From contig CANQWV010000004.1 in NCBI GenBank assembly GCA_947627645.1, positions 1-48,793 on the forward strand: a DNA stretch of 48,793 bases. The letters are read 5' to 3'. This document shows, in pieces, positions 7,775 to 25,545 of this stretch. Under the pieces are notes generated by a model. That model saw nothing but the letters and a program-made list of their open reading frames with translations. It made no database searches and had not been told where the DNA came from. Source of the DNA: an uncultured Lachnospiraceae bacterium. Lineage in GTDB: Bacteria; Bacillota; Clostridia; Lachnospirales; Lachnospiraceae. How positions within the stretch are numbered: the first letter of the stretch is position 1; each line of letters opens with the position of its first letter. Made by a program: the position numbers and the translations under genes.

Positions 7775-8659
7775 ATGAAAATTGTTAAAGTAAAAGGTGG
7801 ATTGGGAAACCAGATGTTTCAATATACTTTTGCAAAATTGTTACAGAAGAGAACCGGGGATGAGATTCGTCTTGATTATTCATATTTTACAGAATTTAAA
7901 TCGAGTAGAATATTAGTGCCACGTTCACAGAATTATTGTTTATCAATACCGATGGCCTCAAAAGAAGAAATAGAAAAGATTTGCTTATTAAGACATAACG
8001 GTAATCCTAAGTCTTTTAGATATAAGTCCGGTATTTTTCTGGAAGGGATAATAAATGGAAAATATTTTATAGAACCCAATAGGGCTTATATTGCGCCAGA
8101 AAAAATTATACATAATAATTTTTTTGATGGTTATTGGCAATCATGGAGATATTATGACGAGGTGAAGGAGGAAGTTAAAAAGGACTTTATTCCTAAAACG
8201 GAATTATCTTGGAACACTGTCAAAATGCAAGAGAAGATAAGAAACCAAAATTCTGTTTTTGTAGGAGTTCGAAAAGGAGAAGATTATTCTAAAGGTATCG
8301 AACATTTTGGAACGTTTAATTCAGAGTATTATCAACGGGCTATGGATTATATTGCTGATAGGGTACGTAATCCAGTTTTTTATATTTTTTCTAATGACAT
8401 TGAATGGTGTAAAAGAAATTTGAATTGGGGTAAACATAAAGTGATATACAGAGAGCCTGAGCAACAGACGAATGATTTTGAAGAATTAATATTAATGACT
8501 TCATGTAAACATGCTGTAATAATTAATAGTTCGTATCATTGGTGGGGCGCTACTTTGATTTCTAATAAAGAGAAAATAGTATGTTGTCCAATGAGATGGT
8601 GGTTTGATAATAAACCAATTGATATCATCCCGGATACATGGAAGAGAATATCGAATTAA
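7775..8659 (+). CDS. Alpha-1,2-fucosyltransferase-like, GT11
   Basis: A 294-residue glycosyltransferase of family 11. Residues 7-20 have KGGLGNQMFQYTFA, the GT11 start motif. DGYWQSWRYY lies at 118-127, the donor-binding arginine motif appears as VRKGED at 165-170, FSNDIEWCK at 205-213 and NSSYHWWGA at 251-259. GT11 enzymes use GDP-L-fucose, which matches the gmd and fcl-like genes just downstream. The usual HxRRGDY reads VGVRKGEDY here, so the donor might be a modified 6-deoxyhexose rather than plain fucose; that is inference. AAAGGAG precedes the ATG. It is the last complete gene of the AT-rich island. Confidence 0.88.
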   Translation: MKIVKVKGGLGNQMFQYTFAKLLQKRTGDEIRLDYSYFTEFKSSRILVPRSQNYCLSIPMASKEEIEKICLLRHNGNPKSFRYKSGIFLEGIINGKYFIEPNRAYIAPEKIIHNNFFDGYWQSWRYYDEVKEEVKKDFIPKTELSWNTVKMQEKIRNQNSVFVGVRKGEDYSKGIEHFGTFNSEYYQRAMDYIADRVRNPVFYIFSNDIEWCKRNLNWGKHKVIYREPEQQTNDFEELILMTSCKHAVIINSSYHWWGATLISNKEKIVCCPMRWWFDNKPIDIIPDTWKRISN

Positions 8660-8718: not shown

Positions 8719-8766
8719 AGAAAGGATGAAATGGTTCTTTTTGTTACCATACATATACAAAAATGA
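8719..8766 (+). promoter_or_regulatory. Ribosome site and 11-codon frame coupled to gmd
   Basis: A strong AAAGGATG site precedes an ATG at 8731 that opens an 11-residue frame. Its TGA stop (8764-8766) overlaps the gmd start in ATGA. The gmd ATG has no good ribosome site of its own, so ribosomes finishing the short frame may restart on gmd. The 17 bases at 8719-8735 match 3862-3878 with one mismatch. Confidence 0.45.
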
Positions 8767-9851
8767 GGAAAGCATTGATCACAGGTGTTACCGGGCAGGA
8801 CGGCTCGTTCCTGTCGGAGTTCTTATTAGAGAAGGGATATGAGGTGCATGGCCTGATCCGTCGGTCATCCACGGATTACCGGGCAAGGATTGCGCATTTG
8901 GAAAATAACGAGCATTTCCATCTTCATTATGGGGACTTGGGGGATTCTATGAGTTTGATGTCGGTGATCGGACAGATCCGACCGGACGAGATCTATAACC
9001 TTGCGGCACAATCCCATGTGCAGGTTTCCTTTAACGTCCCCGAGTATACAGCGGATGTTGTGGCTACGGGAGTGCTGCGGGTGTTGGAGGCAGTCAGGCT
9101 GTGCGGGCTTGCGGATACCTGCCGCATCTATCAGGCGTCGACTTCGGAACTATATGGGAAGGTGGAAGAGGTACCCCAGAGTGAGAATACGCCATTCCAT
9201 CCGTTCAGTCCGTATGCTGTGGCAAAACAGTATGGTTATTGGATCGTAAAGGAATACCGGGAGGCTTACGGGATGTACTGTTGTTCCGGTATCCTGTTCA
9301 ATCATGAATCAGAGCGTCGAGGCGAAACCTTTGTAACGAGGAAGATCACGTTAGCTGCTTCCCGGATCAAACAGGGGAAACAGGACAAGCTGGTCCTGGG
9401 AAATCTTTCCGCCCTCCGCGATTGGGGATACGCCCGGGATTATGTGGAGTGTATGTGGCTTATGCTCCAACAGGACAAACCGGAGGATTTCGTGATCGCT
9501 ACTGGAGAACAGCACAGCGTCCGCGAGTTCTGCAAACTGGCATTCCAATATATAGGAATCGACTTGACGTTTGAAGGAACCGGAGAAGAAGAGAAGGGAA
9601 TCGACAAAGCGACCGGAAAAGTTCTGATCGAAGTATCCCCTGAATTTTACCGACCGACGGACGTCGTCAATCTTTGGGGAGATCCGTCCAGGGCGAAAGA
9701 AGCTTTGGGATGGAACCCGACCAAAACCTCTTTTGAAGAACTGGTGCGGATCATGGTGGAGCATGACATGGAACAGGTCGCAAAGGAGCGTGCGGAAGAA
9801 TATATCGACCTTCAAAAGATTGAATCTTTGGAAAAAGGTGTCATCAGATAG
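8763..9851 (+). CDS. gmd: GDP-mannose 4,6-dehydratase
   Basis: Converts GDP-D-mannose to GDP-4-keto-6-deoxy-D-mannose, the branch point to GDP-L-fucose, colitose, rhamnose and perosamine. The 362-residue SDR protein has [10 protein letters not shown] at 8-17 for NADP binding, LIRRSS and DLGDSMSL in the expected places, the catalytic triad region STSELYG with Thr127 and Glu129, and Tyr151-x3-Lys155. [16 protein letters not shown] is the substrate-binding stretch of the family. Length is normal. It is the first GC-rich gene after the AT-rich island. manA, manC and a mutase downstream can supply its substrate, and the next gene begins right after its stop. Confidence 0.96.
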
Positions 9852-9869
9852 ATGGGAAAGGATGGGCAT

Positions 9870-11057
9870 ATGGAAAAGATCGGTGTGGGATATGCTTCTG
9901 TCACAGAGATTGAGAAACGATATGTGATGGACGCGTTAGACAGCCAGAGGCTTTCACAGGGGAAATATGTGGCAAAGTTTGAAAAGATGTTTGCGAATAT
10001 GCATGGGCACAGGTACGGGGTTATGTGCAACAGCGGCACAAGCGCACTGCATCTTGCCATACTTGCGCTTAAAGAAAAGTATAACTGGGAGGATGATGCG
10101 GAGATACTCGTTCCCGCGATTACATTTATTGCGACCTCAAATTCGGTTCTCCATGCGGGATTAAAGCCTGTTTTTGTGGATGTTGACATTAAGACCTACA
10201 ACATGGATCCCGGCGAGATTGAGAAGCACATCACGGAAAAGACAAGGTGCATAATCCCGGTTCATTGCTTCGGTATGCCATGCGATATGGACAGGATCAG
10301 CGCAATAGCAAAGAAGCATGATCTCAGAATTATCGAGGACTGCGCCGAGGCGCATTTTGCAAAGATAAACGGCAGAACCGTCGGCAGTTTCAGTGACATC
10401 ATGGCGTGCAGTACTTATGTTGCGCATACCCTGACGACGGGCGTCGGCGGTATCATGTGTACAAGCGACACCGGACTTTCCGAAATTCTGCGCTCCCTCG
10501 TAGCCCACGGCAGGGCCTGTACCTGTGAGCGGTGTATCGCTTCCGACGGCAGTCAGGTATGTCCGAAAAGGCTGAAAACCGATATGGATCGGCGGTTCAC
10601 GTTTGTAAGGCTCGGCTACAGCTACCGTGTGGGAGAACTTGAAGGCGCGCTTGGCCTCGGGCAGCTTGAAAGAGTGGACGAGATCATGGGGGCAAGGCAT
10701 AAGAACGCGGACTATCTCATCAAGGGCCTTGAGCCGGTGGAAACGTACATCCAGCTTCCGAGACATCCGGAAAACATTGAGCATACATACATGATGTTCC
10801 CAATCCTTGTCAGACCCGAAAGTCCGAAGCCAAAAAATGAGATCGTCAAGTATCTTGAATCGAAGAATATTGAGACAAGGCCGATGCTGCCGCTTCTGAA
10901 CCAGCCGGTTTATAAGGAGATTTTCGGTGATATCGAAAAGGACTACCCGAATGCGGAGTATATAGACAACAATGGATTCTACATCGGCTGTCATCACGGA
11001 CTTGGGAAAGGGGAACTTGACTACGAGATTCATTCTTTACTGGAATTCCTTAAATAA
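9870..11057 (+). CDS. Sugar 3-dehydratase of the DegT fold, E1/RfbH-like
   Basis: A 395-residue aspartate-aminotransferase-fold enzyme. ATG 9870 is chosen over 9852 because GGAAAGGA sits 8 bases before it. The segment that normally holds the PLP lysine reads Y-V-A-H-T-L-T-T-G, placing His186 at the lysine position, as in ColD and the 3-dehydratase E1. Four cysteines (158, 217, 219, 231) follow nearly the same layout as the [2Fe-2S] cysteines of CDP-4-keto-6-deoxyglucose-3-dehydrase (C-x57-C-x1-C-x7-C); here the gaps are 58, 1 and 11. It therefore probably removes the C3 hydroxyl of a 4-keto-6-deoxy sugar with PMP rather than transaminating. Its position behind gmd suggests a GDP-linked substrate. 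No partner reductase is seen nearby. Confidence 0.8.
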   Translation: MEKIGVGYASVTEIEKRYVMDALDSQRLSQGKYVAKFEKMFANMHGHRYGVMCNSGTSALHLAILALKEKYNWEDDAEILVPAITFIATSNSVLHAGLKPVFVDVDIKTYNMDPGEIEKHITEKTRCIIPVHCFGMPCDMDRISAIAKKHDLRIIEDCAEAHFAKINGRTVGSFSDIMACSTYVAHTLTTGVGGIMCTSDTGLSEILRSLVAHGRACTCERCIASDGSQVCPKRLKTDMDRRFTFVRLGYSYRVGELEGALGLGQLERVDEIMGARHKNADYLIKGLEPVETYIQLPRHPENIEHTYMMFPILVRPESPKPKNEIVKYLESKNIETRPMLPLLNQPVYKEIFGDIEKDYPNAEYIDNNGFYIGCHHGLGKGELDYEIHSLLEFLK

Positions 11058-11075
11058 TTGTACAGGTGAAAGAAT

Positions 11076-12017
11076 ATGAGGAAAAATTCAAAAATCTATG
11101 TCGCCGGTCATCGCGGAATGGTCGGTTCGGCAATCTTGAAAGAGCTTGAACGGCAGGGTTATACAAACATCGTCACCCGTACGCACGAGGGACTTGATTT
11201 ATGCCGGCAGGCGGAGGTAGAAAGATTCTTTGAGGAAGAAAAGCCGGAGTATGTCATAGACGCTGCTGCGCTGGTCGGTGGGATCAAAGCAAACAGCGAG
11301 CGCCCGGCAGAGTTTATGTATGTGAATATGCAGATCCAGCAGAACCTGATCTGGACTGCATTCCACAGTGACGTGAAAAAGTTCCTTTTCTTAGGGAGCG
11401 CATGCATGTATCCGAAGGAATGCCCACAGCCGATGAGGGAGGAAGAACTCCTGACCGGGCTTCCGGAAGTGACAAACGAGGGTTACGCGCTGGCAAAGAT
11501 CAGCGGGAGCCGTCTCTGCAGTTATATCAACAGGGAGTACGGCAGGGCTTTTATCTCAGCGATCCCTGCGAACTCCTACGGGATCGGAGACAGTTTTGAT
11601 CCGGAGCACAGCCATGTGATCCCGGCGCTCCTGATGAAATACCATAAGGCGAAAGAAAGCGGCGCTAAGGAAGTTGTGCTGTGGGGAACCGGAGCCGCGA
11701 AACGTGAGTTTATCAATAATAAGGATATCGCTTCTGCCTGCGTTTTCCTGCTTGAGAATTATTCATCGCCGGAACCGATTAATGTCGGGACAGGTGAGGA
11801 AGTGTCCATCATGGAATTATCCCAGATGATCAAGAGGATTACAGGTTTTGAGGGAGAGATTGTAACCGATCCGACAAAGCCGGATGGGATGATGCGACGG
11901 TTATGTGACAACGCAAAGATCCATGAAATGGGATGGAGGCCGACTGTGCCGCTTGACCAGGGGATCCGGGAATTATATGAATGGTATTTATCGGAGGGAA
12001 ATGAAAGCAATGAATAA
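11076..12017 (+). CDS. fcl: GDP-L-fucose synthase-like epimerase/reductase
   Basis: An SDR enzyme of 313 residues that should epimerise C3/C5 and reduce C4 of GDP-4-keto-6-deoxymannose to give GDP-L-fucose. GHRGMVGSAI at 11-20 binds NADP. Ser108, Cys110, Tyr137, Lys141 and His180 each fall one residue after the known E. coli catalytic residues (107, 109, 136, 140, 179). FLGSACMYPKE and SHVIPALL are the family landmarks. The related ColC acts on the 3-deoxy substrate to give GDP-colitose; with a 3-dehydratase next door that is a real alternative. Its stop overlaps the transketolase start, so the genes are coupled. Confidence 0.88.
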   Translation: MRKNSKIYVAGHRGMVGSAILKELERQGYTNIVTRTHEGLDLCRQAEVERFFEEEKPEYVIDAAALVGGIKANSERPAEFMYVNMQIQQNLIWTAFHSDVKKFLFLGSACMYPKECPQPMREEELLTGLPEVTNEGYALAKISGSRLCSYINREYGRAFISAIPANSYGIGDSFDPEHSHVIPALLMKYHKAKESGAKEVVLWGTGAAKREFINNKDIASACVFLLENYSSPEPINVGTGEEVSIMELSQMIKRITGFEGEIVTDPTKPDGMMRRLCDNAKIHEMGWRPTVPLDQGIRELYEWYLSEGNESNE

Positions 12018-12828
12018 GATCGACTTTTTGGAAAAGAAAACACAGGAGGTAAAACGCCGCTGCCTGGATGTATGCTTAAAGGGTGGGTACGGGCATCCCA
12101 CATCAGCCTATTCCTGTGCGGAGATTGTGGTTGCCTTATATTATGGCATCATGAAGCTGGACGGCTGTGAAGAAAAAAGAGACCGCTTCATTATGAGCAA
12201 GAACCATGCCAGCCCGATTCTGTTCCCGATCTTAAACGACTTGGGTTTCATGTCGGATGAGGAATATGAAAACATTATGCAGGAAGGCAATAAGATAACA
12301 AACCATACCAATATTGCTCATGCCGGACAGGATTTTTCTGGCGGAGCTCTGGGGATTGGACTGGGATACGCAGCAGGACTGGCGCACGGTGCAAAGCTAA
12401 ACAATGATCAGTATATGGTATTTTGTGTGATCGGTGATGCGGAATGTTATGAGGGATCCATCTGGGAGGCCATCATGTATGCAGGAAATTATGAATTGAA
12501 TAATCTGGTTGTTTTTCTGGATCGAAACGGCATGGGGGTGACGGATTTCACGGAGAATATGTTAAAGCTGGAACCGTTTTCTGATAAGTTCAGAAGTTTC
12601 GGCTGGGATGTGAAAAGAATAAATGGCCATGATATCCGGCAGATCCAGAAAGCGGTGGAAGGAAGCAGAACGCGATATTCCTCTAGGCCTTTATGCGTAA
12701 TATGCGATACAGTGAAAGGACATGGAATCGATTACATGGAGAACGCGCAGCTGATGCATGGGACGCTGCCGAAGGATACGTATATCGACCGTGCTTATAA
12801 GCAGTTAAAGGAGGGCAGCCATGAGTAA
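12010..12828 (+). CDS. Transketolase, N-terminal (TPP-binding) subunit
   Basis: Half of a split transketolase, 272 residues from ATG 12010, which sits 11 bases after CGGAGGG; an in-frame ATG at 12001 is too close to that site. GGYGHPTSAYS at 25-35, SKNHASP near 63-69 and the thiamine-diphosphate motif from GDAEC (142) to Asn173 are all present, so the cofactor site looks intact. It overlaps fcl by 8 bases and the C-terminal subunit by 8 bases. Split transketolases also serve the pentose phosphate pathway, but this copy is locked inside a deoxysugar operon, which suggests a dedicated two-carbon transfer to a keto-sugar nucleotide. Confidence 0.9.
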   Translation: MNKIDFLEKKTQEVKRRCLDVCLKGGYGHPTSAYSCAEIVVALYYGIMKLDGCEEKRDRFIMSKNHASPILFPILNDLGFMSDEEYENIMQEGNKITNHTNIAHAGQDFSGGALGIGLGYAAGLAHGAKLNNDQYMVFCVIGDAECYEGSIWEAIMYAGNYELNNLVVFLDRNGMGVTDFTENMLKLEPFSDKFRSFGWDVKRINGHDIRQIQKAVEGSRTRYSSRPLCVICDTVKGHGIDYMENAQLMHGTLPKDTYIDRAYKQLKEGSHE

Positions 12829-13750
12829 TCCAAGAGAGATCTTTTTTACAAAAGTCCAGGAAAGGATCCGGAACGGACAGGATATCGTGGTTCTGACAGC
12901 AGATCTGGCAGCGCCCTCCCTGGATAACTTTCGCAGGGAGTTCAAGGGCAGGTATCTCAGCGTCGGGGTTGCGGAGCAGAACCTGATCACAACAGCATGC
13001 GGATTGGCGGCGGCGGGGAAACAAGTCGTGGCATGGGGATTGAACCCGTTTGTTACTACCCGTGCACTGGATCAGATTAGGAACACCATTTCTTTGATGA
13101 AATATCCGGTTGTCTTTGCTGGATTACATGCGGGTCTCAGTTCTGCCATATCAGGAGCGACCCATGTGGTGACGACAGATCTTTCCCTGATCCGCACCTG
13201 CGCGGGGATCACGACATATAATGTGTCCGATACCGGAATGGCTGACAGGCTGTTTGATGAGGTGCTTACATTTTCTAAGCCGATTTACTTGCGGTTTGAT
13301 AAAGATATTAATTATAGGCTGGAACGGATGGATGCGCAGTATCAAAACGGCATTTCTATGATACAAGAAGGAAAAAATCATCTGATTATAACAACAGGGT
13401 ATCATACAAAAAAAGTTTTGGATGTGGTAAATGGGATTTCCAGAAGCGGCTTTACGCCAACAATCCTTGATATCTACCGTTTTCCGTTTGATAAAGACCG
13501 GTTGGCGGATTTTGCCTCTGCCCATGAGAAGATCCTGACAGTGGAAGAGCATATCCTACAGGGAGGACTTGGATCCGCCGTGCTGGAAGCATTAGCTGAC
13601 CACGGAATCCTGCGCCCGGTAAAGCGTATCGGGATTGATATAGAAAAAGGCTATCCGGAATTTTTTGGCAGGCGAGGTTATTTCCAAAAGTATTTTGGTT
13701 TAGATGATGAAAGCATAGAAAAGGTGATTATGGATTATTTCATGCATTGA
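12821..13750 (+). CDS. Transketolase, C-terminal subunit
   Basis: The 309-residue partner of the preceding gene. LSVGVAEQNLI at 46-56 contains the catalytic Glu52 that activates thiamine in the pyrimidine-binding domain. GLHAGLSSAISGATH follows in the expected place, and residues from about 180 form the C-terminal domain (ILTVEEHILQGGLGSAV). The start overlaps the upstream stop by 8 bases, so the subunits should be made in equal amounts. Two-carbon branched sugars are known in other bacteria, for example yersiniose, where an acetolactate-synthase-like enzyme does the transfer; a transketolase doing so on a GDP-sugar is my inference. Confidence 0.9.
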   Translation: MSNPREIFFTKVQERIRNGQDIVVLTADLAAPSLDNFRREFKGRYLSVGVAEQNLITTACGLAAAGKQVVAWGLNPFVTTRALDQIRNTISLMKYPVVFAGLHAGLSSAISGATHVVTTDLSLIRTCAGITTYNVSDTGMADRLFDEVLTFSKPIYLRFDKDINYRLERMDAQYQNGISMIQEGKNHLIITTGYHTKKVLDVVNGISRSGFTPTILDIYRFPFDKDRLADFASAHEKILTVEEHILQGGLGSAVLEALADHGILRPVKRIGIDIEKGYPEFFGRRGYFQKYFGLDDESIEKVIMDYFMH

Positions 13751-13783
13751 ATTGCTAAAAAGATAGGAATGCGTCCTTGATAG

Positions 13784-13864
13784 GGAGAAAATTTAGCTCT
13801 GCCTCAAGGATACGAACAATATTTAAATTCAATCATGAAGTCGGGCGGGCATATGACCAGTTGA
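13784..13864 (+). other. Possible C-terminal remnant, LicD-like
   Basis: A 26-codon stretch between two stops reads LALPQGYEQYLNSIM, which resembles the end of LicD-type phosphocholine transferases. It has no start and no ribosome site. It may be a scar of a lost gene between the transketolase and the SDR gene, or chance. Confidence 0.2.
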
Positions 13865-13909
13865 TGAAAGGTTCCCATGAGTGAGTTAAAGAACATATAG
13901 GATGGCTTT

Positions 13910-15022
13910 ATGGGAGTAAATGAGAGCAATGGAGAGGTTTATCGGGTGACAGGGATGGAAAAGAACAGGATTATTTTAGAAGATATGGAAAAATTGGTAT
14001 CTGTATATGGTGACAGATTTAATAAGCTTAAAGACAGCACGATTCTGGTCACTGGGGCAAATGGGATGATCACGACCTGGTTGTCGGAATTCCTTGTGTA
14101 TCTTGCAGACAGGCATAACATCCAACTGTATCTTCAGTGTAGAAATCTGGAAAAGGCGAAAAAGGCTTACGAACGATATCTGGATCGGAAGTCTTTTCAT
14201 CTCGTCAGCTTTGATTTTGAGAATAATGAAATCCCGGATATTTGTTTTGATTATATTCTCCATGCGGCAAGTCCGGCGGGAACGAAATATTTTATGGAGA
14301 CTCCGGTAGATGTCATCCGACCGAATGCAGTCGGCACATGGCATCTTTTACAGTATGCAAGGAAGACGGGAATAAAGAAGTTTTTGATATTTAGTTCCGG
14401 TTCCATTTATGGGGAAGGTGGGACTGATAAGTCAGTCCTGACGGAAGAAGATTACGGAATTGTGGATCCGCTGGGTGTCCGGTCATGCTATGTGGAGTCA
14501 AAAAGGCTTGCAGAGCAGATGGGGATTGCTTTTTGGAAGCAATATCAGGTGCCGGTTTCTATCATCCGTATCCGACATACTTATGGACCGACGTTTGACT
14601 TGCAGCATGATACGCGTATTATACCGCGGGTCATTAGGCAAATTCTCAATGGCGAGGATATTGAGATTTATAAAGATCCAGATTCCGTGGTCCAATATAC
14701 TTATATCGCAGACATGGTTGCCGCGATCCTTTTGGTTTTGCTGGAAGGGGAAAATGGAGGCGCGTATAATGCCTGTGGTGATGAGATTGTGAAGATGGAT
14801 GATGTCATTGCGTGGATGGTGGAAGCGGATCCATCTGTTAAATCTGCTTTGGTTGAAAAAGAAATGGATGCAAGCTATAGATTTGGGAAGGGCAAGGGAC
14901 TTAATTTCCGGAAATTATCGAACCAAAAACTGAAAGGGCTGGGTTGGGAACAGCTTTACAGCAATCGAGAAGGGTTCGCCCGGATTGTCCGGTATTATCT
15001 GGAAGAAAACCGATCCCGTTAA
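13910..15022 (+). CDS. NAD-dependent epimerase/dehydratase (extended SDR)
   Basis: A 370-residue extended SDR. TILVTGANGM at 44-53 binds the dinucleotide, LHAASPAG follows, FSSGSIYGE at 161-169 contains the catalytic Ser, and Tyr194-x3-Lys198 (YVESK) completes the active site. The overall look is that of UDP-glucuronate decarboxylase or dTDP-glucose 4,6-dehydratase relatives, but the substrate cannot be assigned. After a transketolase it could reduce or epimerise a branched 4-keto sugar, as a separate reductase does in yersiniose synthesis; this is inference. AGGATGG precedes ATG 13910; the ATG at 13955 is another possible start. GC content is intermediate between the island and manC. Confidence 0.82.
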   Translation: MGVNESNGEVYRVTGMEKNRIILEDMEKLVSVYGDRFNKLKDSTILVTGANGMITTWLSEFLVYLADRHNIQLYLQCRNLEKAKKAYERYLDRKSFHLVSFDFENNEIPDICFDYILHAASPAGTKYFMETPVDVIRPNAVGTWHLLQYARKTGIKKFLIFSSGSIYGEGGTDKSVLTEEDYGIVDPLGVRSCYVESKRLAEQMGIAFWKQYQVPVSIIRIRHTYGPTFDLQHDTRIIPRVIRQILNGEDIEIYKDPDSVVQYTYIADMVAAILLVLLEGENGGAYNACGDEIVKMDDVIAWMVEADPSVKSALVEKEMDASYRFGKGKGLNFRKLSNQKLKGLGWEQLYSNREGFARIVRYYLEENRSR

Positions 15023-15039: not shown

Positions 15040-16356
15040 ATGAACATCATCTTACTTTCCGGCGGTTCCGGCAAGCGCCTCTGGCCATTGTCGAACGACA
15101 TCCGCTCGAAACAGTTTATCAAGATATTTAAGACAGAAGACGGTACCTATGAGTCTATGGTGCAGCGCGTCTACCGACAGATACGGCACGCTGACCCGGA
15201 TGCGCGGGTGACGATTGCCACCAGCCGGTCGCAGGCGTCCTCCATCCACAACCAGCTTGGGGAGGATGTGGGGATCTCCATCGAGCCCTGCAGGCGGGAC
15301 ACCTTCCCGGCGATCGCCCTGGCAACCGCTTACCTGGCCGACGTGCTGAAAGTCGGCCCTGAGGAGGGAGTGGTCGTCTGCCCGGTGGATCCTTACGTGG
15401 AGGACGCCTATTTTGAAGCTTTGAAAAAGTTGGGGGAGCAGGCAGCGAAGGGGGAGGCGAACCTCGTCCTTATGGGGATCGCGCCCACGTATCCCAGCGA
15501 GAAGTACGGCTACATCATCCCCGAGGGGGCGGATGCAGTCAGCAGGGTCGCCATGTTCAGGGAAAAACCGGACGCGCAGACGGCGCGGGAGTATATCCGG
15601 CAGGGGGCGCTCTGGAACGGCGGCGTGTTCGCGTATAAACTGGAGTATGTCTTAAGGAAAGCCCATGAGCTTCTGGATTTCACGGATTATGACGATCTCT
15701 TTGCGAAATATGAGACCTTGCCGAGGATCAGCTTCGACTACGCGGTGGTGGAAAAGGAACCGGACATCCAGGTCATGCGGTTTTGCGGGGAGTGGAAAGA
15801 CCTTGGTACCTGGAATACCCTCACGGAGGCCATGGAGGATGCGTGCATCGGGGAGGCAGTGCTGGGCGATACCTGCGAGAACGTCCATGTGGTCAATGAG
15901 CTGGATGTCCCCGTGCTTGCTATGGGTCTGCGCGACGTGGTGATCTCCGCCAGCCCGGAGGGGATCCTCGTCTCGGACAAGGAGCAGTCCAGCTATATCA
16001 AGCCGTATGTGGACGGGATTGATCAGCAGGTCATGTTCGCGGAGAAGAGTTGGGGTGAATACCGTGTGCTTGATGTGGAGAATGGGGGCTTGACGGTCAA
16101 GGTGACGCTGAAGCCCGGGGGCAGGATGAACTACCACAGCCATAAGAACCGGGATGAGGTGTGGACGGTCATCTCCGGGAAGGGCCGTACCATCGTGGAC
16201 GGCATGGAACAGGAGGTTTCCGTGGGGGACGTGGTCACCATGCAGGCCGGCTGCCGCCATACGGTGATCGCGGAGACGGAATTAAAGCTGGTCGAGGTCC
16301 AGCTGGGCAGGGAGATAAGTGTCCATGACAAACAGAAATACGAGCTGGAACGCTGA
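15040..16356 (+). CDS. manC: Mannose-1-phosphate guanylyltransferase
   Basis: Makes GDP-mannose from mannose-1-phosphate and GTP. The ATG at 15040 follows AAGAAAGGAT and gives 438 residues; upstream in-frame starts lie inside the previous gene. LSGGSGKRLWPLS at 6-18 is the nucleotidyltransferase signature, FREKPD and LWNGGVFAYK are sugar-binding stretches, and a C-terminal cupin (GGRMNYHSHKNRDEVW) is the part that in type II enzymes carries mannose-6-phosphate isomerase activity. A separate manA-like gene follows, so isomerase activity may be redundant here. GC-rich, unlike the island. It feeds gmd directly. Confidence 0.94.
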   Translation: MNIILLSGGSGKRLWPLSNDIRSKQFIKIFKTEDGTYESMVQRVYRQIRHADPDARVTIATSRSQASSIHNQLGEDVGISIEPCRRDTFPAIALATAYLADVLKVGPEEGVVVCPVDPYVEDAYFEALKKLGEQAAKGEANLVLMGIAPTYPSEKYGYIIPEGADAVSRVAMFREKPDAQTAREYIRQGALWNGGVFAYKLEYVLRKAHELLDFTDYDDLFAKYETLPRISFDYAVVEKEPDIQVMRFCGEWKDLGTWNTLTEAMEDACIGEAVLGDTCENVHVVNELDVPVLAMGLRDVVISASPEGILVSDKEQSSYIKPYVDGIDQQVMFAEKSWGEYRVLDVENGGLTVKVTLKPGGRMNYHSHKNRDEVWTVISGKGRTIVDGMEQEVSVGDVVTMQAGCRHTVIAETELKLVEVQLGREISVHDKQKYELER

Positions 16357-17347
16357 CGGGGAAAATGTGCCATTCCTTTTGAACCCTGCGGGGAAGGACT
16401 ACCTCTGGGGAGGCACCCGCCTGCGGGATGATTTTAACAAGGAGATCGATTTAACGCCTCTGGCGGAGACCTGGGAGTGTTCCGCCCATCCGGACGGCCT
16501 GAGCACCGTGGCAGGGGGGCCGTTTGCCGGGAGGACGCTGGCTGACGTGCTGCGGGAACGCCCGGATTTCCTGGGGACCCACCCACTTATAAATGGGGAT
16601 GGGGAGCTCCCGGTGCTGATCAAGTTCATCGACGCGAAGCGGGACCTGTCCATTCAGGTGCACCCGGACGATGATTACGCCCGGATACATGAGGGCGGGC
16701 AGTACGGGAAGACGGAGCTGTGGTATGTGCTGGACGCTGCGACGGATGCGCGGATCGTGTACGGGTTTACCAGGGATGTGACAGCGGACAGGCTCCGGCA
16801 GGGCGTCGCGGACGGGAGCATTGAAAGGCTTGTGCAGAAGGTTCCGGTGAAAAAGGACGACGTGTTTTATATCGGGGCGGGGACAGTGCACGCGATTGGC
16901 GCGGGGACGCTGGCCGCCGAGATCCAGGAGAATTCTAACCTCACCTACCGCCTGTACGATTACGGCAGGGTGGATAAGGATGGGAAAGAACGCGAATTGC
17001 ATATCGAAAAGGCGCTGGAGGTGGCTGACCTGCGGGGGAGCTCGGCGCCGAAGCAGCCCCTGCGGGTGCTGCGTTACCGGGCGGGCTGTGCGTCGGAGCT
17101 GCTCTGCCGGTGCCGGTATTTTGAAGTGAACCGCATGGCCGTCAATACGCAGCGGTGCCGGCAGCTGGCATCTTTCCGGTCGGACCGGATGTCCTTCCGG
17201 GTGCTGCTCTGCACGGACGGCTGCGGTTCTATTTATTATGGAAAAGAGTCCTTCGGGTTTTTCCGTGGGGACTGCATCTTTGTCCCGGCAGGTTCCGTGC
17301 AGATGCGGATCCACGGACGGGCGCAGTTCCTGGATGTGCGGTGCTGA
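16325..17347 (+). CDS. manA: Mannose-6-phosphate isomerase, class I
   Basis: Interconverts fructose-6-phosphate and mannose-6-phosphate, opening the route to GDP-mannose. The protein has 340 residues from ATG 16325, with CAGGGAG 10 bases before it; the start lies 32 bases inside manC. The zinc ligands are visible as Gln111 and His113 (QVHPDD), Glu131 (KTELWY) and His189 (GAGTVHAIG), followed by QENSNLTYRLYDYGR. The cupin-like C-terminus is complete. Tight overlap with manC implies co-translation. Length is typical of the short Firmicutes class I enzymes. Confidence 0.94.
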   Translation: MTNRNTSWNADGENVPFLLNPAGKDYLWGGTRLRDDFNKEIDLTPLAETWECSAHPDGLSTVAGGPFAGRTLADVLRERPDFLGTHPLINGDGELPVLIKFIDAKRDLSIQVHPDDDYARIHEGGQYGKTELWYVLDAATDARIVYGFTRDVTADRLRQGVADGSIERLVQKVPVKKDDVFYIGAGTVHAIGAGTLAAEIQENSNLTYRLYDYGRVDKDGKERELHIEKALEVADLRGSSAPKQPLRVLRYRAGCASELLCRCRYFEVNRMAVNTQRCRQLASFRSDRMSFRVLLCTDGCGSIYYGKESFGFFRGDCIFVPAGSVQMRIHGRAQFLDVRC

Positions 17348-17531: not shown

Positions 17532-19238
17532 ATGAAAAGGGATATTTTAAGCAGATATCAGGAGTGGCGGCAGAAAGCTGCTGTTTCTTTCTTGCGGGAT
17601 TCGGATGTGGAGGAAGGGCTGCGGCAGATGGAGCCTGATGCAGGGAAGATAGAGGATGCCTTTTACAGGGATCTTGCTTTTGGCACGGGCGGCCTGCGGG
17701 GGCTGGTCGGCGCAGGCACGAACCGGATGAATATCTATACGGTGGCGAAGGCGTCCCAGGGACTGGCAGATTATGTGAAAAAGAACTTTCCGCCAAAGGA
17801 GCGGCGGATCGCGGTAAGCTATGACTCCCGCATCAAGTCGGACCTGTTTGCGCGGACGGCCTGCATGGTATTTGCTGCTAATGGGATTCTGGTATCGGTC
17901 TATCCGCGGCTGATGCCGACGCCCTGTTTATCGTTTGCAGTGCGGGAACTGCATTGCGCGGCGGGCGTTATGGTCACGGCGAGCCATAACCCGGCGGAGT
18001 ATAATGGCTACAAAGTGTACGGTGCGGATGGCTGCCAGATTACTACGCAGGCAGCGGCGGATATTTTGGCGGAGATTGAAAAACTGGATATTTTTTCTGA
18101 TGTGAAGGCAACGGATTTCCACTCTGGGATTGAGGACGGGCTGATACAGTATATTTCGCCGGAAACAGATACAGCCTATATCGAGGCAGTGAAAGGGCAG
18201 TCTCTGTTGGGAAACCTGGACGTGGACAAAAATGTTTCGATTGTCTATACGCCCCTGAACGGGACCGGGTTACAGCCCGTCCTGCGCGTCTTAAAGGAGA
18301 GCGGGTTTCGCAGTGTCAAGGTGGTCCGGGAACAGGAAGAACCCGACGGACATTTCCCGACCTGCCCGTACCCGAACCCGGAGGTCCGGGAGGCGATGGA
18401 ACTGGGGATCACGTATGCCCGGGAGAACCATGCAGACCTGCTGCTGGCGACGGATCCGGACTGCGACCGCGTAGGGATTGCGGTGAGAGATAATTCCGGA
18501 GACTTTGTGTTGTTGTCCGGTAATGAGACGGGGCTGCTCCTGCTGGATTATATCTGTTCCCGCCGGGTGGCGCTGGGGACGATGCCAGAGGAACCAGTGT
18601 TTATCAAGACGATTGTGACCACGGATCTGGCGGATGCAGTGGCGGCGCATTACGGCGTGCGCACGGTGAACGTGCTGACCGGGTTTAAGTTCATCGGGGA
18701 GCAGATCGGTCTGTTGGAACAAAATGGGAAGGAGGATTCCTATATCTTTGGTTTTGAGGAGAGCTGTGGCTATCTCTCTGGCACCTATGTCCGGGACAAG
18801 GATGCGGTGGTCGCGGTGCTCCTGATTTGCGAGATGTACGCGTTCTATGCGCGGCAGGGTGTGAGTCTGACAGAAAAACTGAAAGAGATCTATGATACCT
18901 ATGGATATATGCTCAACACCCTGCATTCCTATGGATTTACGGGTGCTGCAGGGATGGAAAAGATGAAAGAGATCATGGGGCGCTTCCGTGAAAATACCGC
19001 AGAACTGTGCGGCAGGAAGATTAGTTCCTTCATGGACTATTCCAAAGGATTGGATGGTTTGCCGGCGTCCGATGTACTGAGATATTGTTTTGAGGATGGG
19101 AGTGCGGTTGTCATCCGCCCCTCCGGCACAGAGCCGAAGCTAAAGGTTTATCTTTCTGTACGATCGGAGAGCCGGGAGGAAACGGAAAGATACGAGAGAG
19201 AACTTATGGACGGGATAGAGGGATTTATCGGGCGATGA
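17532..19238 (+). CDS. Phosphohexomutase (phosphoglucomutase/phosphomannomutase)
   Basis: A 568-residue alpha-D-phosphohexomutase. Catalytic Ser151 is in VTASHNPAEYNG, the Mg-binding loop is DPDCDR at 309-314, the sugar-recognition loop is GFEESCGYLSG and the phosphate-binding loop is RPSGTEPKLK near 532. The size matches the long PgcA/PGM2-type enzymes, which act on glucose- and often mannose-phosphates. Its position after manC and manA argues that it supplies mannose-1-phosphate here, completing fructose-6-P to GDP-mannose. A strict glucose role is possible if another mutase exists. GAGGCTGGG precedes the ATG. Confidence 0.92.
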   Translation: MKRDILSRYQEWRQKAAVSFLRDSDVEEGLRQMEPDAGKIEDAFYRDLAFGTGGLRGLVGAGTNRMNIYTVAKASQGLADYVKKNFPPKERRIAVSYDSRIKSDLFARTACMVFAANGILVSVYPRLMPTPCLSFAVRELHCAAGVMVTASHNPAEYNGYKVYGADGCQITTQAAADILAEIEKLDIFSDVKATDFHSGIEDGLIQYISPETDTAYIEAVKGQSLLGNLDVDKNVSIVYTPLNGTGLQPVLRVLKESGFRSVKVVREQEEPDGHFPTCPYPNPEVREAMELGITYARENHADLLLATDPDCDRVGIAVRDNSGDFVLLSGNETGLLLLDYICSRRVALGTMPEEPVFIKTIVTTDLADAVAAHYGVRTVNVLTGFKFIGEQIGLLEQNGKEDSYIFGFEESCGYLSGTYVRDKDAVVAVLLICEMYAFYARQGVSLTEKLKEIYDTYGYMLNTLHSYGFTGAAGMEKMKEIMGRFRENTAELCGRKISSFMDYSKGLDGLPASDVLRYCFEDGSAVVIRPSGTEPKLKVYLSVRSESREETERYERELMDGIEGFIGR

Positions 19239-22134: not shown

Positions 22135-25100
22135 TTAAGAAAAAGCATTCCCAGGGTTTATGGAGGATCCGGTCAGACGGTTCATAAGGTCATCAAAGGA
22201 GCTGGTGTCCGGCTGGCCGGTATTGTCTTGCCCTGGAATGGCGTCGGTTTCATTTTGCGGCAGAGTGTCACCGGTTTCGTTTTGTGGAAGAATATCGGAG
22301 GGCCAGGCGGTCTCGGAGCGGTTATCCGCAGGCTTTGGACTCTCTTCCGGGAAAACGCCGTTCGGGGATTTCAGATCTGACTCAGCCTTTAACTCTGATT
22401 CAGTTTTTACCTCTGATTCAGTTTTTACCTCTGGTTCAGTTTTTACCTCCGGTTCGGTCTTTACCTCCGGTTCAGTCTTTAACTCCTGTTCAGTTTTTAA
22501 CTCCGGTTCGGTCTTTAACTCCGGTTCAGTCTTTAACTCCGATTCAGCTTTTAGCTTCGGTTCAGCCTTTGACTCCGATTCAGTCTTCAATCCCGACTCG
22601 AATTCTGATCCCGATTCGGATTCTGACTCAGATTCGCTTTCGGACGCTGCCTTCTTTTTGAGGCGGCCGAGCAGATCCGAGTAGATCGTTTCTTTTTCGG
22701 TCTCGGGAGCGGGCTTGTGCAGAGCGCATTTTTTCGATGGCACGGTGCCGACGGCGAAATATTCCACATAGGTTTCCCTGCAGCCGCCAGACACGGCGGG
22801 CAGGTGGGATTCGCGGCACAGCGTTACCGGCTCGACGGTTTCCGGGATCGGAAAATCAGAGGTCGTGATTCCCTCGTGGACGCGGTTCATGACAGCCGAC
22901 CAGAGGATTCTGTTGTACGTGTGATACGTAGATGCGAGGGGCAGGTCGCGGTTGTTGTCGTAACCGCCCCAGACGCAGCAGGTGTAGAACGGCGTGTAAC
23001 CGACGAACCAGATATCCTTGTAGTTGGAGGTGGTTCCGGTCTTGCCGGCGACGGGCTGCTCCCCGGCGGAGATCGTGCCGTACGCCGTGCCTTCGGGCGC
23101 GTTGACGACGTCCTTCATCGCGTCGGTCAGAAGGAACGCAGTGCTCTCGGACAGGACGCGGGTATTGTCCTTCTGCGTATCTCCGGGGGCGAGCCTGGCT
23201 GTGGACACTGCGATTGCTTTTCCTGCATAGACGTCCTGCTTTTTTTCGGACAGCTGGCCGAACAGGTGATTTTCTGCACTGTGTGCGCTGCCGCTGTCTC
23301 CAGACAGGGCCTGAGTCGAATTGCCTGAGATCGTGCCTGCAGCGCTGTCTGCGTCGGCGGCCAGCTCACTCGTACGGTCGATGAGGACATTCCCCTGTCG
23401 ATCCAGGATTTTTGTAAAAAATTTCGGCGTGCGATATACGCCCTGATTCGCGATCGCGGCGTAGGCGGAGCAGAGCTCCAGGTTTGTGACGCCCTGCGTG
23501 ATCCCGCCGAGCGCGAGCGGCTGTACGATGTCTGAGGAGTGGTCGCCGTCTGCGGAGGTGTAGGATTCCTGCAGGGTCGTGATGCCAAGCCTGCGCGCAT
23601 ACTCGTAGCCGACGCGCGGGGAGATTTCAGTGATGCATTTTACGGCGATGACGTTGATCGAGCGCATGATCGCCTCACGTATGGTCGCCGTGCCGGAATA
23701 ATCCGTGAGATCCCAGTTGCTGACCGGAGTGCCGTCTTCGTACTTATAAGGTTCGTTTTTGTACAGCGTGGCGAGCGTCTGTCCGAATGCGTCGATCGCA
23801 GGAGCGTAGGCCGTCAGGATCTTGAAGGTCGAGCCGGGCTGGCGGGTCGTCTCGGTCGCGCGATTCAGCGTGAGGCTGGCAGTCTTTTCGCCGCGGCCGC
23901 CGACCAGGGCGCGCACGAGGCCGGTTGCCTGATCCATGAGCACGAGAGAGGCCTGCGGCTGGGGTGAGAGCGTGAGACGTTCGCCGAGCACGGTCGGGCC
24001 GCTATTCCCGGAATCCTCGTCAGACTTCTCATTGATATCCTCTTCGGCATTTGCGTCGAAATCCTTATCGGAGTCATCTCTGAAATCTTCGCTGGAATTT
24101 CCGTCGACTTTATCTTCGGAATTCTCGCTGGAATCGTCTTCGGGGGCATTTGCCGCGGTCGTTTCTAATACGTACTCCCGGAAGGCATCGGCGTAACCTT
24201 GCGCTTCTTCCTTGGTTGCACAGAGCAGGTCAAATGAAGGATCCATGTTCTCCCGGACATAGCTGCGCAGAGCTTCTGAGCCATAGTTGGTGATCTGACC
24301 GTCCGCGCCGGAAATGCTCAGGGCGTAGTCGACGCCGAACTCGGTGCCTTCCGGAAAATTTGCGGGATTTGAGAATTCCTCATCGCAGATTTGCTGAAGT
24401 GCGCTGTCCTGTGCGGAGAAAATGCGCAGGCCTCCGCTGTACACGGCGCGGTACGCCTGCTCCTCAGAATAGCCCTTTTCGCTGGTCAGCGCGTCGATCG
24501 CCTGCTCAATCAGCGCGTCTTCATAATAGGAATAGACGTCTGACTCTTCATAAGCGGCGTTGAATTCCCGTACGCGGGCGTATACGTCGTCGGCAAGCGC
24601 AGCCTGCCGCTGCGATTCGGACAGATAGCCCTGTTCGGTCATATAGCGGAGCACGACCGCCCGCCGGGCTTTATTCTCCTCCGGGTTCGCGATCGGGTTG
24701 TAGCGGCTGGGATTTTGGGGGATCGCGGCGAGAACCGCCGACTCCGAGGTCGTCAGCTCAGACACGTCTTTGCCGAAATAGCGTCTGGCAGCCGCCTGCA
24801 CGCCGTAGCATCCGGCTCCGAGATTGATCGTGTTCAGGTAATCCTCGAGAATTTCATCTTTTGTAATCCGCTTTTCAAGCTGCAGCGCGAGATACTGCTC
24901 CTGCACCTTCCGGCGGAAACGCTCAGCGAAGGAGGTTTCCTGCGTCCAGTCGGTGAACACACTGTTCTTGATGAGCTGCTGCGTGATCGTACTGGCGCCC
25001 TCCGAAAAGGAGCCCCTGGTGATTCCGGTCAGAAAGGCACGCACGATGCCGTGAAGGTCGACGCCGCCGTGCTCGTAGAAGCGCTCGTCCTCGATGGCGA

Positions 25101-25545
25101 TCATTGCTTTCTGCAGAGAGTCCGGGATTTCGTCAAGCGGGACAATGTCCCGGTTCGATGTGGCGAATGTGAGCTTGCGCAGAGGATTTCCGTCCTGGTC
25201 GCAGATGTAGGTGGCGGATTCCGTCGGAGAGACGCTGATCGTATCAATGTCCGGGGCGGTTGCGGCGAGGCGCCAGACCAGCCCGAGAAACGCGAACAGG
25301 AAGACGACTGCGGCCGCTCCGATTCCGGCCAGAATCCGCTTCCACGGGAGATTGCGAAGCATTCGCGGAATACGCGCCCACGGAAAACGGCGGATCGCCT
25401 GTATCATTCGGGATAAGTACTTTTTTATGCCGGATTTCCAAACGTCAGATAAGTGTTTTTTTATGCCGGATAAACGATTCTCTTCATCGGGCGTCCGCGC
25501 GTCAAATAAGCGATTCTCCTCGCCAGGTGTCTGCCTGTTTTCCAT
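22135..25545 (-). CDS. Class A penicillin-binding protein (PBP1A-like)
   Basis: A bifunctional peptidoglycan synthase of 1136 residues, longer than the usual 650-900. One membrane helix (about 71-91) follows a basic cytoplasmic tail. The glycosyltransferase domain has IEDERFYEHGGVDLHGI (catalytic Glu152) and GASTITQQLIKN. The transpeptidase has the SxxK motif in RQPGSTFKIL, an SxN-like SIN and KTGTTSNYKDIWFVGY. An acidic insert rich in Asp, Glu and Ser lies within the region before SxxK. After the catalytic domains comes a Ser/Glu run and a tail of about 13 six-residue repeats of the KTEPEL/V type. AAGGGAG precedes the ATG. It transcribes away from the small peptide gene at 25740. Confidence 0.93.
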   Translation of the reverse strand: MENRQTPGEENRLFDARTPDEENRLSGIKKHLSDVWKSGIKKYLSRMIQAIRRFPWARIPRMLRNLPWKRILAGIGAAAVVFLFAFLGLVWRLAATAPDIDTISVSPTESATYICDQDGNPLRKLTFATSNRDIVPLDEIPDSLQKAMIAIEDERFYEHGGVDLHGIVRAFLTGITRGSFSEGASTITQQLIKNSVFTDWTQETSFAERFRRKVQEQYLALQLEKRITKDEILEDYLNTINLGAGCYGVQAAARRYFGKDVSELTTSESAVLAAIPQNPSRYNPIANPEENKARRAVVLRYMTEQGYLSESQRQAALADDVYARVREFNAAYEESDVYSYYEDALIEQAIDALTSEKGYSEEQAYRAVYSGGLRIFSAQDSALQQICDEEFSNPANFPEGTEFGVDYALSISGADGQITNYGSEALRSYVRENMDPSFDLLCATKEEAQGYADAFREYVLETTAANAPEDDSSENSEDKVDGNSSEDFRDDSDKDFDANAEEDINEKSDEDSGNSGPTVLGERLTLSPQPQASLVLMDQATGLVRALVGGRGEKTASLTLNRATETTRQPGSTFKILTAYAPAIDAFGQTLATLYKNEPYKYEDGTPVSNWDLTDYSGTATIREAIMRSINVIAVKCITEISPRVGYEYARRLGITTLQESYTSADGDHSSDIVQPLALGGITQGVTNLELCSAYAAIANQGVYRTPKFFTKILDRQGNVLIDRTSELAADADSAAGTISGNSTQALSGDSGSAHSAENHLFGQLSEKKQDVYAGKAIAVSTARLAPGDTQKDNTRVLSESTAFLLTDAMKDVVNAPEGTAYGTISAGEQPVAGKTGTTSNYKDIWFVGYTPFYTCCVWGGYDNNRDLPLASTYHTYNRILWSAVMNRVHEGITTSDFPIPETVEPVTLCRESHLPAVSGGCRETYVEYFAVGTVPSKKCALHKPAPETEKETIYSDLLGRLKKKAASESESESESESGSEFESGLKTESESKAEPKLKAESELKTEPELKTEPELKTEQELKTEPEVKTEPEVKTEPEVKTESEVKTESELKAESDLKSPNGVFPEESPKPADNRSETAWPSDILPQNETGDTLPQNETDAIPGQDNTGQPDTSSFDDLMNRLTGSSINPGNAFS
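22378..22640 (-). repeat. 18-base coding tandem repeats in the PBP tail
   Basis: About 13 degenerate 18-base units encode a six-residue (K-T/A-E-S/P-E/K-L/V) periodic tail, next to a Ser-Glu dipeptide run. The repeats stay in frame, so copy-number change would only alter the tail length. Confidence 0.85.

Follow-up and report, generated by a model that had tools for sequence, protein, structure and literature searches.

A six-gene cassette of an uncultured Lachnospiraceae bacterium (GenBank assembly GCA_947627645.1) probably makes a guanosine diphosphate (GDP)-activated, two-carbon-branched deoxyhexose for a surface polysaccharide; judging from gene content and residues, we give this reading a probability of about 0.55. 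The cassette lies on contig CANQWV010000004.1, whose 48,793 nt are called the window below (contig C4 of 234 in a 2.73-Mb draft genome with 88% completeness). It encodes a GDP-mannose 4,6-dehydratase (Gmd), a sugar C3-dehydratase of DegT fold, an Fcl-like epimerase/reductase, the N and C halves of a split transketolase (TktN and TktC), and an extended short-chain dehydrogenase/reductase (SDR; Table 1). All six frames were recovered at their positions, intact and with no internal stop, and they are closely packed, as a first-pass annotation made from the letters alone had described. The coupled overlaps which that annotation noted among the central genes are two 8-nt stop/start overlaps, Fcl/TktN and TktN/TktC; 159 nt, with no long open frame, separate TktC from the last SDR.

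In the proposed pathway, ManA, a phosphohexomutase and ManC would supply GDP-mannose, which Gmd would convert to GDP-4-keto-6-deoxymannose. The dehydratase, which has histidine in place of the usual lysine (His type), would remove O-3 by pyridoxamine 5'-phosphate (PMP) chemistry to give GDP-4-keto-3,6-dideoxymannose, with electrons arriving probably via an Fe-S cluster on four cysteines, as in E1 and SpnQ. The split transketolase would then transfer a hydroxyacetyl (ketol) unit to C-4, with the ketone as acceptor, and reduction of the exocyclic HOCH2-CO- ketone by the last SDR would leave a 1,2-dihydroxyethyl branch. Fcl may epimerise C-5 before branching, or may in parallel make GDP-L-fucose for the adjacent glycosyltransferase of family GT11. 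We infer every reaction, the step order and the product from the gene content, frames, residues, neighbourhoods and trees described below. The likeliest product is a GDP-linked 4-C-two-carbon-branched deoxysugar, possibly accompanied by GDP-fucose. The fully specified version, namely a GDP-mannose-derived sugar with a transketolase-made 4-C-(1,2-dihydroxyethyl) branch, reached via His-type C3-dehydratases of a third lineage marked by a four-Cys motif of its own, is more tentative and falls somewhat short of even odds.

The window transketolase is not the only copy in the genome, a point on which the first-pass annotation had made its idea depend: a second split transketolase with ordinary residues lies on contig C17 (truncated in its C half at the end of the contig), and Dxs, a further thiamine diphosphate (ThDP) protein of this kind, on contig C79. 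Since the C17 copy is ordinary and the window pair has lost acceptor-pocket residues, we dropped the view that the window pair is a plain housekeeping enzyme. Pfam and PDB matches put both halves among split transketolases, the best PDB match of the N half being the N component of the C. hydrogenoformans transketolase. In the numbering of E. coli TktA, which served as the reference, the N half keeps H26, H66, H100, D155, N185, and H261, and the C half keeps R358, E411, H461, and H473, leaving the ThDP residues (D155, N185, E411), the ketol-donor residues, and the active-site histidines intact; the C half carries the changes D469 to S, R520 to K, and S385 to P. D469 presumably reads the alpha-hydroxyl of the acceptor, and we take R520, together with R358, S385, and H461, to be phosphate-binding. 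The loss of two of these pocket residues would fit an acceptor lacking both a C-3 alpha-hydroxyl and a terminal phosphate, and is consistent with a ketosugar acceptor.

Comparison with other C halves places this change in a small group (G and L numbers denote genomes and loci). Among the 33 C halves tabulated, the window included, 27 (many of them near-identical) keep both D469 and R520 and six have neither: the window, L038 (the same as L072), L059 (the same as L086), L070, L071, and L073, of which L070 and L071 had been fetched for their adjacent dehydratase. The 29 loci from the phylum search, besides the window, comprise 23 that keep both residues, five without D469 only (three of these through a one-residue gap), and one without either. 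In a tree of 59 transketolases, a branch with a Shimodaira-Hasegawa-like approximate likelihood ratio (SH-aLRT) support of 99 separates the 12 rows without D469 from the rest; seven of them come from surface-sugar loci and five from elsewhere (contexts assigned partly by eye, those of L142 and L151 from 1.5-kb flanks only). When an Azospirillum pair was added, a seven-row set with SH-aLRT 99 united the window, L072, Azospirillum, L070, L171, L172, and L073, all from surface-sugar loci (the contexts of L073 and L172 judged by eye). The contig of L086 (G272:C14, 2665-14512), one of the six with neither residue, consists of an SDR-TktN-TktC block duplicated in inverted orientation, which may be an artefact of assembly.

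The last SDR also belongs to a group that keeps company with sugar nucleotide and ThDP genes. A search of the order covered 295 genomes, the host's own included, and gave matches at 1e-38 or better in 25 of them. In a tree of 30 rows (three of them outgroup), the window SDR falls in an 8-row clade with support 99, and all six assessable other members stand beside genes for a CDP-glucose 4,6-dehydratase-like (RfbG-like) protein, an RfbH-like protein, and a ThDP enzyme, where CDP is cytidine diphosphate; the seventh (G023) is at a contig end. The ThDP enzyme is of the acetolactate-synthase type in G121, G281, G229, and G163, a split transketolase in G238, and both in G051. NCBIfam cut-offs were passed by the cytidylyltransferase, 4,6-dehydratase, and RfbH of G051 and by the 4,6-dehydratase of G238, the others being assigned by similarity. 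More distant SDR loci (L124-L129) have no RfbH match in six out of six, and an IspD-like gene was seen nearby, by eye, in five (L124, L126-L129), possibly indicating CDP-alditol pathways.

Residues 13-367 of the window SDR align to 8v4h with 106 bits. According to excerpts from PMC10918830, 8v4g and 8v4h are the C. jejuni enzyme HS5.17, whose reduction of CDP-6-fructose yields CDP-6-glucitol and whose Rossmann fold is preceded by an extra helix; Mnp2 reduces the ketone of CDP-6-fructose as well. The window SDR likewise has about 43 residues preceding the Rossmann fold, and this stretch aligns with those of HS5.17 and Mnp2 (the CDP-6-D-glucitol synthase type). The partners differ: dehydratase and ThDP genes accompany the clade of the window SDR, whereas a cytidylyltransferase accompanies the HS5.17/Mnp2 type. 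Since a transketolase would leave HOCH2-CO-, an SDR from a family that reduces a fructose-type ketone would be a fitting partner. The window SDR reads SSGSIYG at the site where UDP-glucuronate decarboxylase, Gmd, and 8v4h have a Glu. We take the Glu of such STSEVYG/STDEVYG-type motifs to be catalytic in UDP-glucuronate decarboxylases and 4,6-dehydratases of the SDR family; without it, decarboxylase or dehydratase chemistry is unlikely, and the protein is no close copy of HS5.17 either.

The dehydratase is of the His type, as the first-pass annotation had it: His192 (numbering of the 401-aa protein) occupies the position of the Schiff-base lysine of aminotransferases. Its start is probably at 9870, matching the start of its 59% identical homologue in G265. 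The further description as E1/RfbH-like stands in part, since RfbH (NF011936) is the best NCBIfam profile, but with 264 bits it is far under the cut-off of 423, and both the cysteine spacing and the branch in the tree differ. The window protein has the motif Cys223-x-Cys225-x2-Cys228-x8-Cys237, and the same four cysteines with the same spacing (C-x-C-x2-C-x8-C) occur in three proteins, those of the window, G265, and Solidesulfovibrio magneticus. The E1/RfbH cluster presumably has the spacing Cys-x57-Cys-x-Cys-x7-Cys, a count made by hand on the RfbH of L070. A window Cys at the tripeptide EDC is one column off relative to RfbH/E1 and is absent in S. magneticus. Full-length PDB matches are to perosamine synthetases (205 bits), E1 (193), and ColD (178), and perosamine synthetases as top matches would fit GDP-4-keto-6-deoxymannose as the substrate; for the C-terminal part, E1 (111 bits) scores above ColD (78 bits). 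E1 and SpnQ bear a [2Fe-2S] cluster and ColD has none, according to excerpts from PMC8987622.

In the dehydratase tree, the proteins of the window and G265 are joined at 100/98, and that of Solidesulfovibrio joins them at only 86/63. Neither the RfbH/E1 branch nor the ColD branch includes the window and G265 proteins, which stand on the Lys-type aminotransferase side of the tree (split support 100/98). As the root is a midpoint root, one and two origins of the His type fit the tree alike, and we dropped the claim of two separate origins. ColD, with no Cys cluster, is 30% identical to the window protein and separate from it in the tree. The window protein and its relatives may be a third lineage of His-type C3-dehydratases, probably with an Fe-S cluster. 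The DegT protein of locus L172 is a Lys-type aminotransferase and was not counted as a dehydratase. An archaeal trio of Gmd, an oxidoreductase, and a His-type dehydratase was seen on a Haladaptatus pallidirubidus plasmid (L186, 6992-10122); this dehydratase groups with ColD.

The cluster has its own maker of a 4-keto-6-deoxy nucleoside diphosphate (NDP)-sugar, as Gmd, scoring above its NCBIfam cut-off, is 57-58% identical to E. coli Gmd and is the sole close match in its genome (the next best is 26% identical). Gmd, a His-type C3-dehydratase, a relative of Fcl and ColC, and a GT11 gene also stand together in the E. coli O55 colitose locus, where the second and third of these genes are presumably named ColD and ColC; the window GT11 is 28% identical to that of O55 and is a candidate user of a GDP-6-deoxysugar. 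The cassette may therefore be a plain colitose or fucose locus. GT11 would then receive GDP-L-colitose and/or GDP-L-fucose from Gmd, the dehydratase, and Fcl, and the transketolase pair and SDR would serve another sugar or be passengers; we consider this explanation unlikely. The Fcl-like protein lends it some weight. It scores 417 bits with its NCBIfam equivalog (cut-off 500), is the only match at 1e-15 in its genome, and keeps the equivalents of S107, C109, Y136, K140, and H179; with the full set of epimerase/reductase residues kept, GDP-fucose or GDP-colitose could form in parallel or instead. It is nearer E. coli Fcl (46% identity) than O55 ColC (39%), and we dropped its identification as a ColC. 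Compared with O55, the window has a transketolase pair and an SDR in addition, and its dehydratase bears the Cys cluster that ColD lacks. Against this explanation, the start of TktN lies within the fcl gene, and sugar nucleotide genes accompany both the SDR clade and the seven-row transketolase set elsewhere. In S. magneticus, moreover, a two-subunit ThDP enzyme occurs together with an Fcl homologue and a His-type dehydratase, and so it does in G225, there with a ColD-type dehydratase.

Analogous but non-identical sets recur in other genomes, which argues that the cassette is more than chance. CDP-type analogues were found in G051, G238, and G670. In G670 (L171, G670:C1, 5157-9548) the order is RfbF-RfbG-TktN-TktC-SDR, with the transketolase directly after the maker of the 4-keto-6-deoxysugar, and no RfbH or other C3-dehydratase lies within the 19 kb read. 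This arrangement would suit branching without C3 deoxygenation, in which case the transketolase would act on GDP-4-keto-6-deoxymannose itself, and a 3,6-dideoxysugar would arise separately from the dehydratase and Fcl. We regard that as distinctly improbable, because RfbH is in the cluster for all six assessable relatives of the window SDR and the G670 stretch has no member of the window SDR clade. The G670 set is flanked by two copies of apparently one transposase gene. In G051 (L070, G051:C106, 2527-13044) the order is RfbF-RfbG-RfbH-TktN-TktC, acetaldehyde dehydrogenase, 4-hydroxy-2-oxovalerate aldolase, an acetolactate-synthase-like gene, and two SDRs; two ThDP enzymes thus share one CDP-sugar locus, which may also provide a donor for a longer branch like that of erwiniose.

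Heptose-like versions occur as well. In G225, TktN and TktC stand with an HddA-like kinase, a ColD-type dehydratase, a further SDR, an HddC/GmhB-like fusion, and an Fcl homologue that has lost the Gly motif and K140. The plasmid pDMC1 of Solidesulfovibrio magneticus (L180, 2912-18233) has a cluster of E1alpha, E1beta, Fcl, and dehydratase genes, the last 38% identical to the window dehydratase with the same His and four-Cys motif, together with an SDR 53% identical to that of G225 and HddC-like and GmhA-like genes. The HddA and HddC matches are under curated cut-offs, so that the nucleotide of these heptose sets is only presumed. Three distant loci, the window included, thus combine a two-subunit ThDP enzyme with an Fcl homologue and a His-type dehydratase, which argues for Fcl as a member of one pathway with the others, at least in the role of epimerase. 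On an Azospirillum sp. B510 plasmid (pAB510f; L179, 5020-11943) we observed a split transketolase, a heptose-kinase-like gene, an Fcl-like SDR, another SDR 60% identical to one of G225, and an aldo-keto reductase (AKR) reminiscent of the AKR Pau7.

The nearest transketolases by tree sit in loci with heptose-kinase-like and GmhA-like genes, and this, with the IspD-like genes near distant SDRs (by eye) and the two SDR relatives that reduce CDP-6-fructose, would accord with a split transketolase that makes a sugar-phosphate precursor (sedoheptulose-7-P or erythrose-4-P) for a heptose or alditol, the SDR reducing it. We consider this improbable: no homologue of the tested heptose genes was found in the window at 1e-8, no IspD-like gene was seen by eye near the window SDR, a housekeeping split transketolase is present, and R520 and D469 are lost in the window copy.

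Several observations weigh against a GDP-linked branched sugar. Linkage of the five families, named as a check in the first-pass annotation, has analogous but non-identical counterparts elsewhere; the exact set was met in no other genome searched. With the dehydratase as query, none of the 46 other genomes of the genus reached 1e-80, and none of the 397 others in a phylum draw (398 genomes with the host's own) passed 1e-64, two matches being at 33%. The G265 protein, the only close homologue in the order draw, lies about 150 bp from a contig end, and its visible side has unrelated genes and no transketolase or Fcl; within the family of G265, none of the 37 others matched at 1e-75. Two of the seven RfbH loci fetched for their dehydratase (L130-L136) have an acetolactate-synthase-like gene, one has a fragment of such a gene, and four lack it, so that an RfbH need not mean branching; four neighbourhoods from the 183 plasmid records found with the C half include one sugar locus and three catabolic-looking ones. 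No ferredoxin reductase is among the annotated window genes, and the complete Fcl-like enzyme would reduce the same C-4 ketone. R358 and H461, which we take to belong to the phosphate pocket, are kept. D469 loss is unspecific, since five of the 12 rows without it do not have a nucleotide-sugar look, and the Azospirillum pair falls inside the clade yet keeps D469 and R520; these contexts and this pair weaken the idea of D469/R520 loss as a mark of nucleotide-sugar transketolases alone. Branches are long, and the join of the window with L072 drops to 68 with Azospirillum. In PDB, human UDP-glucuronate decarboxylase scores slightly above 8v4h (112 bits, residues 43-365), and the window SDR has Ser where 8v4h has the motif Glu. 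On balance, the branched-sugar idea of the first-pass annotation gains from the non-housekeeping transketolase, its altered acceptor pocket, and relatives placed with NDP-4-ketosugar genes in CDP and heptose versions, and loses from the unmatched set and the complete Fcl.

Other searches returned more distant relatives. A contig search with the C half found three loci of Stenotrophomonas, each coding for a transketolase-like protein (462-637 aa, 26-27% identical). With the dehydratase, viral contigs gave no relative, a phage search gave one unannotated Salmonella phage record (33%), and plasmids gave 24 records; among four plasmid neighbourhoods read, a ThDP enzyme is in one (S. magneticus) and in view in none of the other three (in L183 frame calling did not show the dehydratase frame itself). 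Plasmids searched with the SDR gave seven records at 27-33%.

The principle of ThDP-dependent C-branching of an NDP-4-ketosugar is established, and what would be new, relative to the open PMC literature, is a GDP form with a split transketolase. In yersiniose biosynthesis, the ThDP enzyme YerE adds a two-carbon unit to C-4 of an NDP-4-keto-3,6-dideoxyhexose, and ketoreduction is expected after branching (excerpts from PMC12247030; PMC4753412; structure of yersiniose in an excerpt from PMC8533242). Yersiniose is CDP-linked and uses YerE, whereas the window set would start from GDP-mannose, has a dehydratase of another lineage, and uses a split transketolase, for which a hydroxyacetyl unit rather than an acetyl unit is expected. 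The two-gene ThDP enzymes AviB1/AviB2 of avilamycin and Pau11/Pau12 of paulomycin are proposed to add two carbons to a ketosugar, followed by reduction (excerpts from PMC4753412); they differ in their pyruvate donor, their AKR reductase (Pau7 ketoreductase), and their antibiotic products from the split transketolase and SDR of a polysaccharide locus. Split-gene transketolases are themselves proposed to move hydroxyacetyl to a ketosugar in miharamycin and amipurimycin, and 13 further candidates, none characterised in vitro, are all from Streptomyces (excerpts from PMC12247030); the window pair, in contrast, sits with a GDP-sugar set in a polysaccharide locus. Among the glycan genes of an endosymbiont, Tkl is listed along with ColD, ColC, and HddA/HddC, with no branching role given in the excerpts of PMC8204192. 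In the open PMC literature (closed journals being outside the scope) we found no paper joining transketolase, GDP-mannose, a branched-chain sugar, and a polysaccharide.

The cassette may represent a new route to branched sugars in bacterial surface polysaccharides and would then be, to our knowledge, the first route to a GDP-linked branched octose. It would add a GDP branch to the C-branched sugars, together with a likely new lineage of Fe-S dehydratases. On this reading, split transketolases whose acceptor pocket is altered would act generally as ketone-accepting carboligases in the making of bacterial surface sugars, and the enzyme would be a biocatalyst that sets a chiral tertiary alcohol bearing a ketol group. 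As the ketone-accepting role of split transketolases was still unproven according to a 2025 review (excerpts from PMC12247030), the cassette and its CDP and heptose counterparts form a compact set for direct testing of this role, with D469 and R520 as the residues to examine.

Judged by its genes, the surface-polysaccharide locus spans about 1-19 kb of the window. Its left part has an initial sugar transferase, two GT2-type genes, a MurJ-like flippase, and GT11, followed by the six cassette genes; ManC-, ManA-, and phosphohexomutase-type genes lie to the right of the cassette (Table 1). A 438-aa protein of the same locus has no Pfam match, and from its position we infer a polymerase. The GC content is about 0.30-0.39 left of the cassette (from 3 kb), 0.43-0.51 at 9-15 kb, and 0.58-0.60 at 15-18 kb, steps that give the locus a mosaic look.

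Table 1. Genes of the cassette and its neighbours in the window.
Gene product	Position	Strand	Evidence
GT11 glycosyltransferase (alpha-1,2-fucosyltransferase family)	7775..8659	+	Pfam PF01531, 94 bits
Gmd, GDP-mannose 4,6-dehydratase	8763..9851	+	TIGR01472, 526 bits (cut-off 415)
PMP-type sugar C3-dehydratase, DegT fold	9852..11057	+	His192 replacing Lys; four-Cys motif
Fcl-like epimerase/reductase	11076..12017	+	Best PDB matches are GDP-L-fucose synthase structures
Split transketolase N half (ThDP and ketol-donor side)	12010..12828	+	PF00456; best PDB match 6yak
Split transketolase C half	12821..13750	+	PF02779, PF02780; best PDB match 6yaj
Extended SDR, proposed C2-branch reductase	13910..15022	+	8-row SDR clade; near full-length match to 8v4h
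ManC-like mannose-1-phosphate guanylyltransferase (substrate supply)	15040..16356	+	PF00483 and cupin; TIGR01479, 194 bits (below cut-off 373)
ManA, mannose-6-phosphate isomerase (substrate supply)	16325..17347	+	TIGR00218, 140 bits (above cut-off 116)
Phosphohexomutase, PMM/PGM type	17532..19238	+	PF02878-PF02880, PF00408

To the right of about 21 kb, the frame listing and homology checks with the cassette and heptose queries gave nothing more. This part of the window has, by eye, a penicillin-binding-protein-like frame (22135-25545, reverse strand) whose long C-terminal tail is made up of short acidic repeats.

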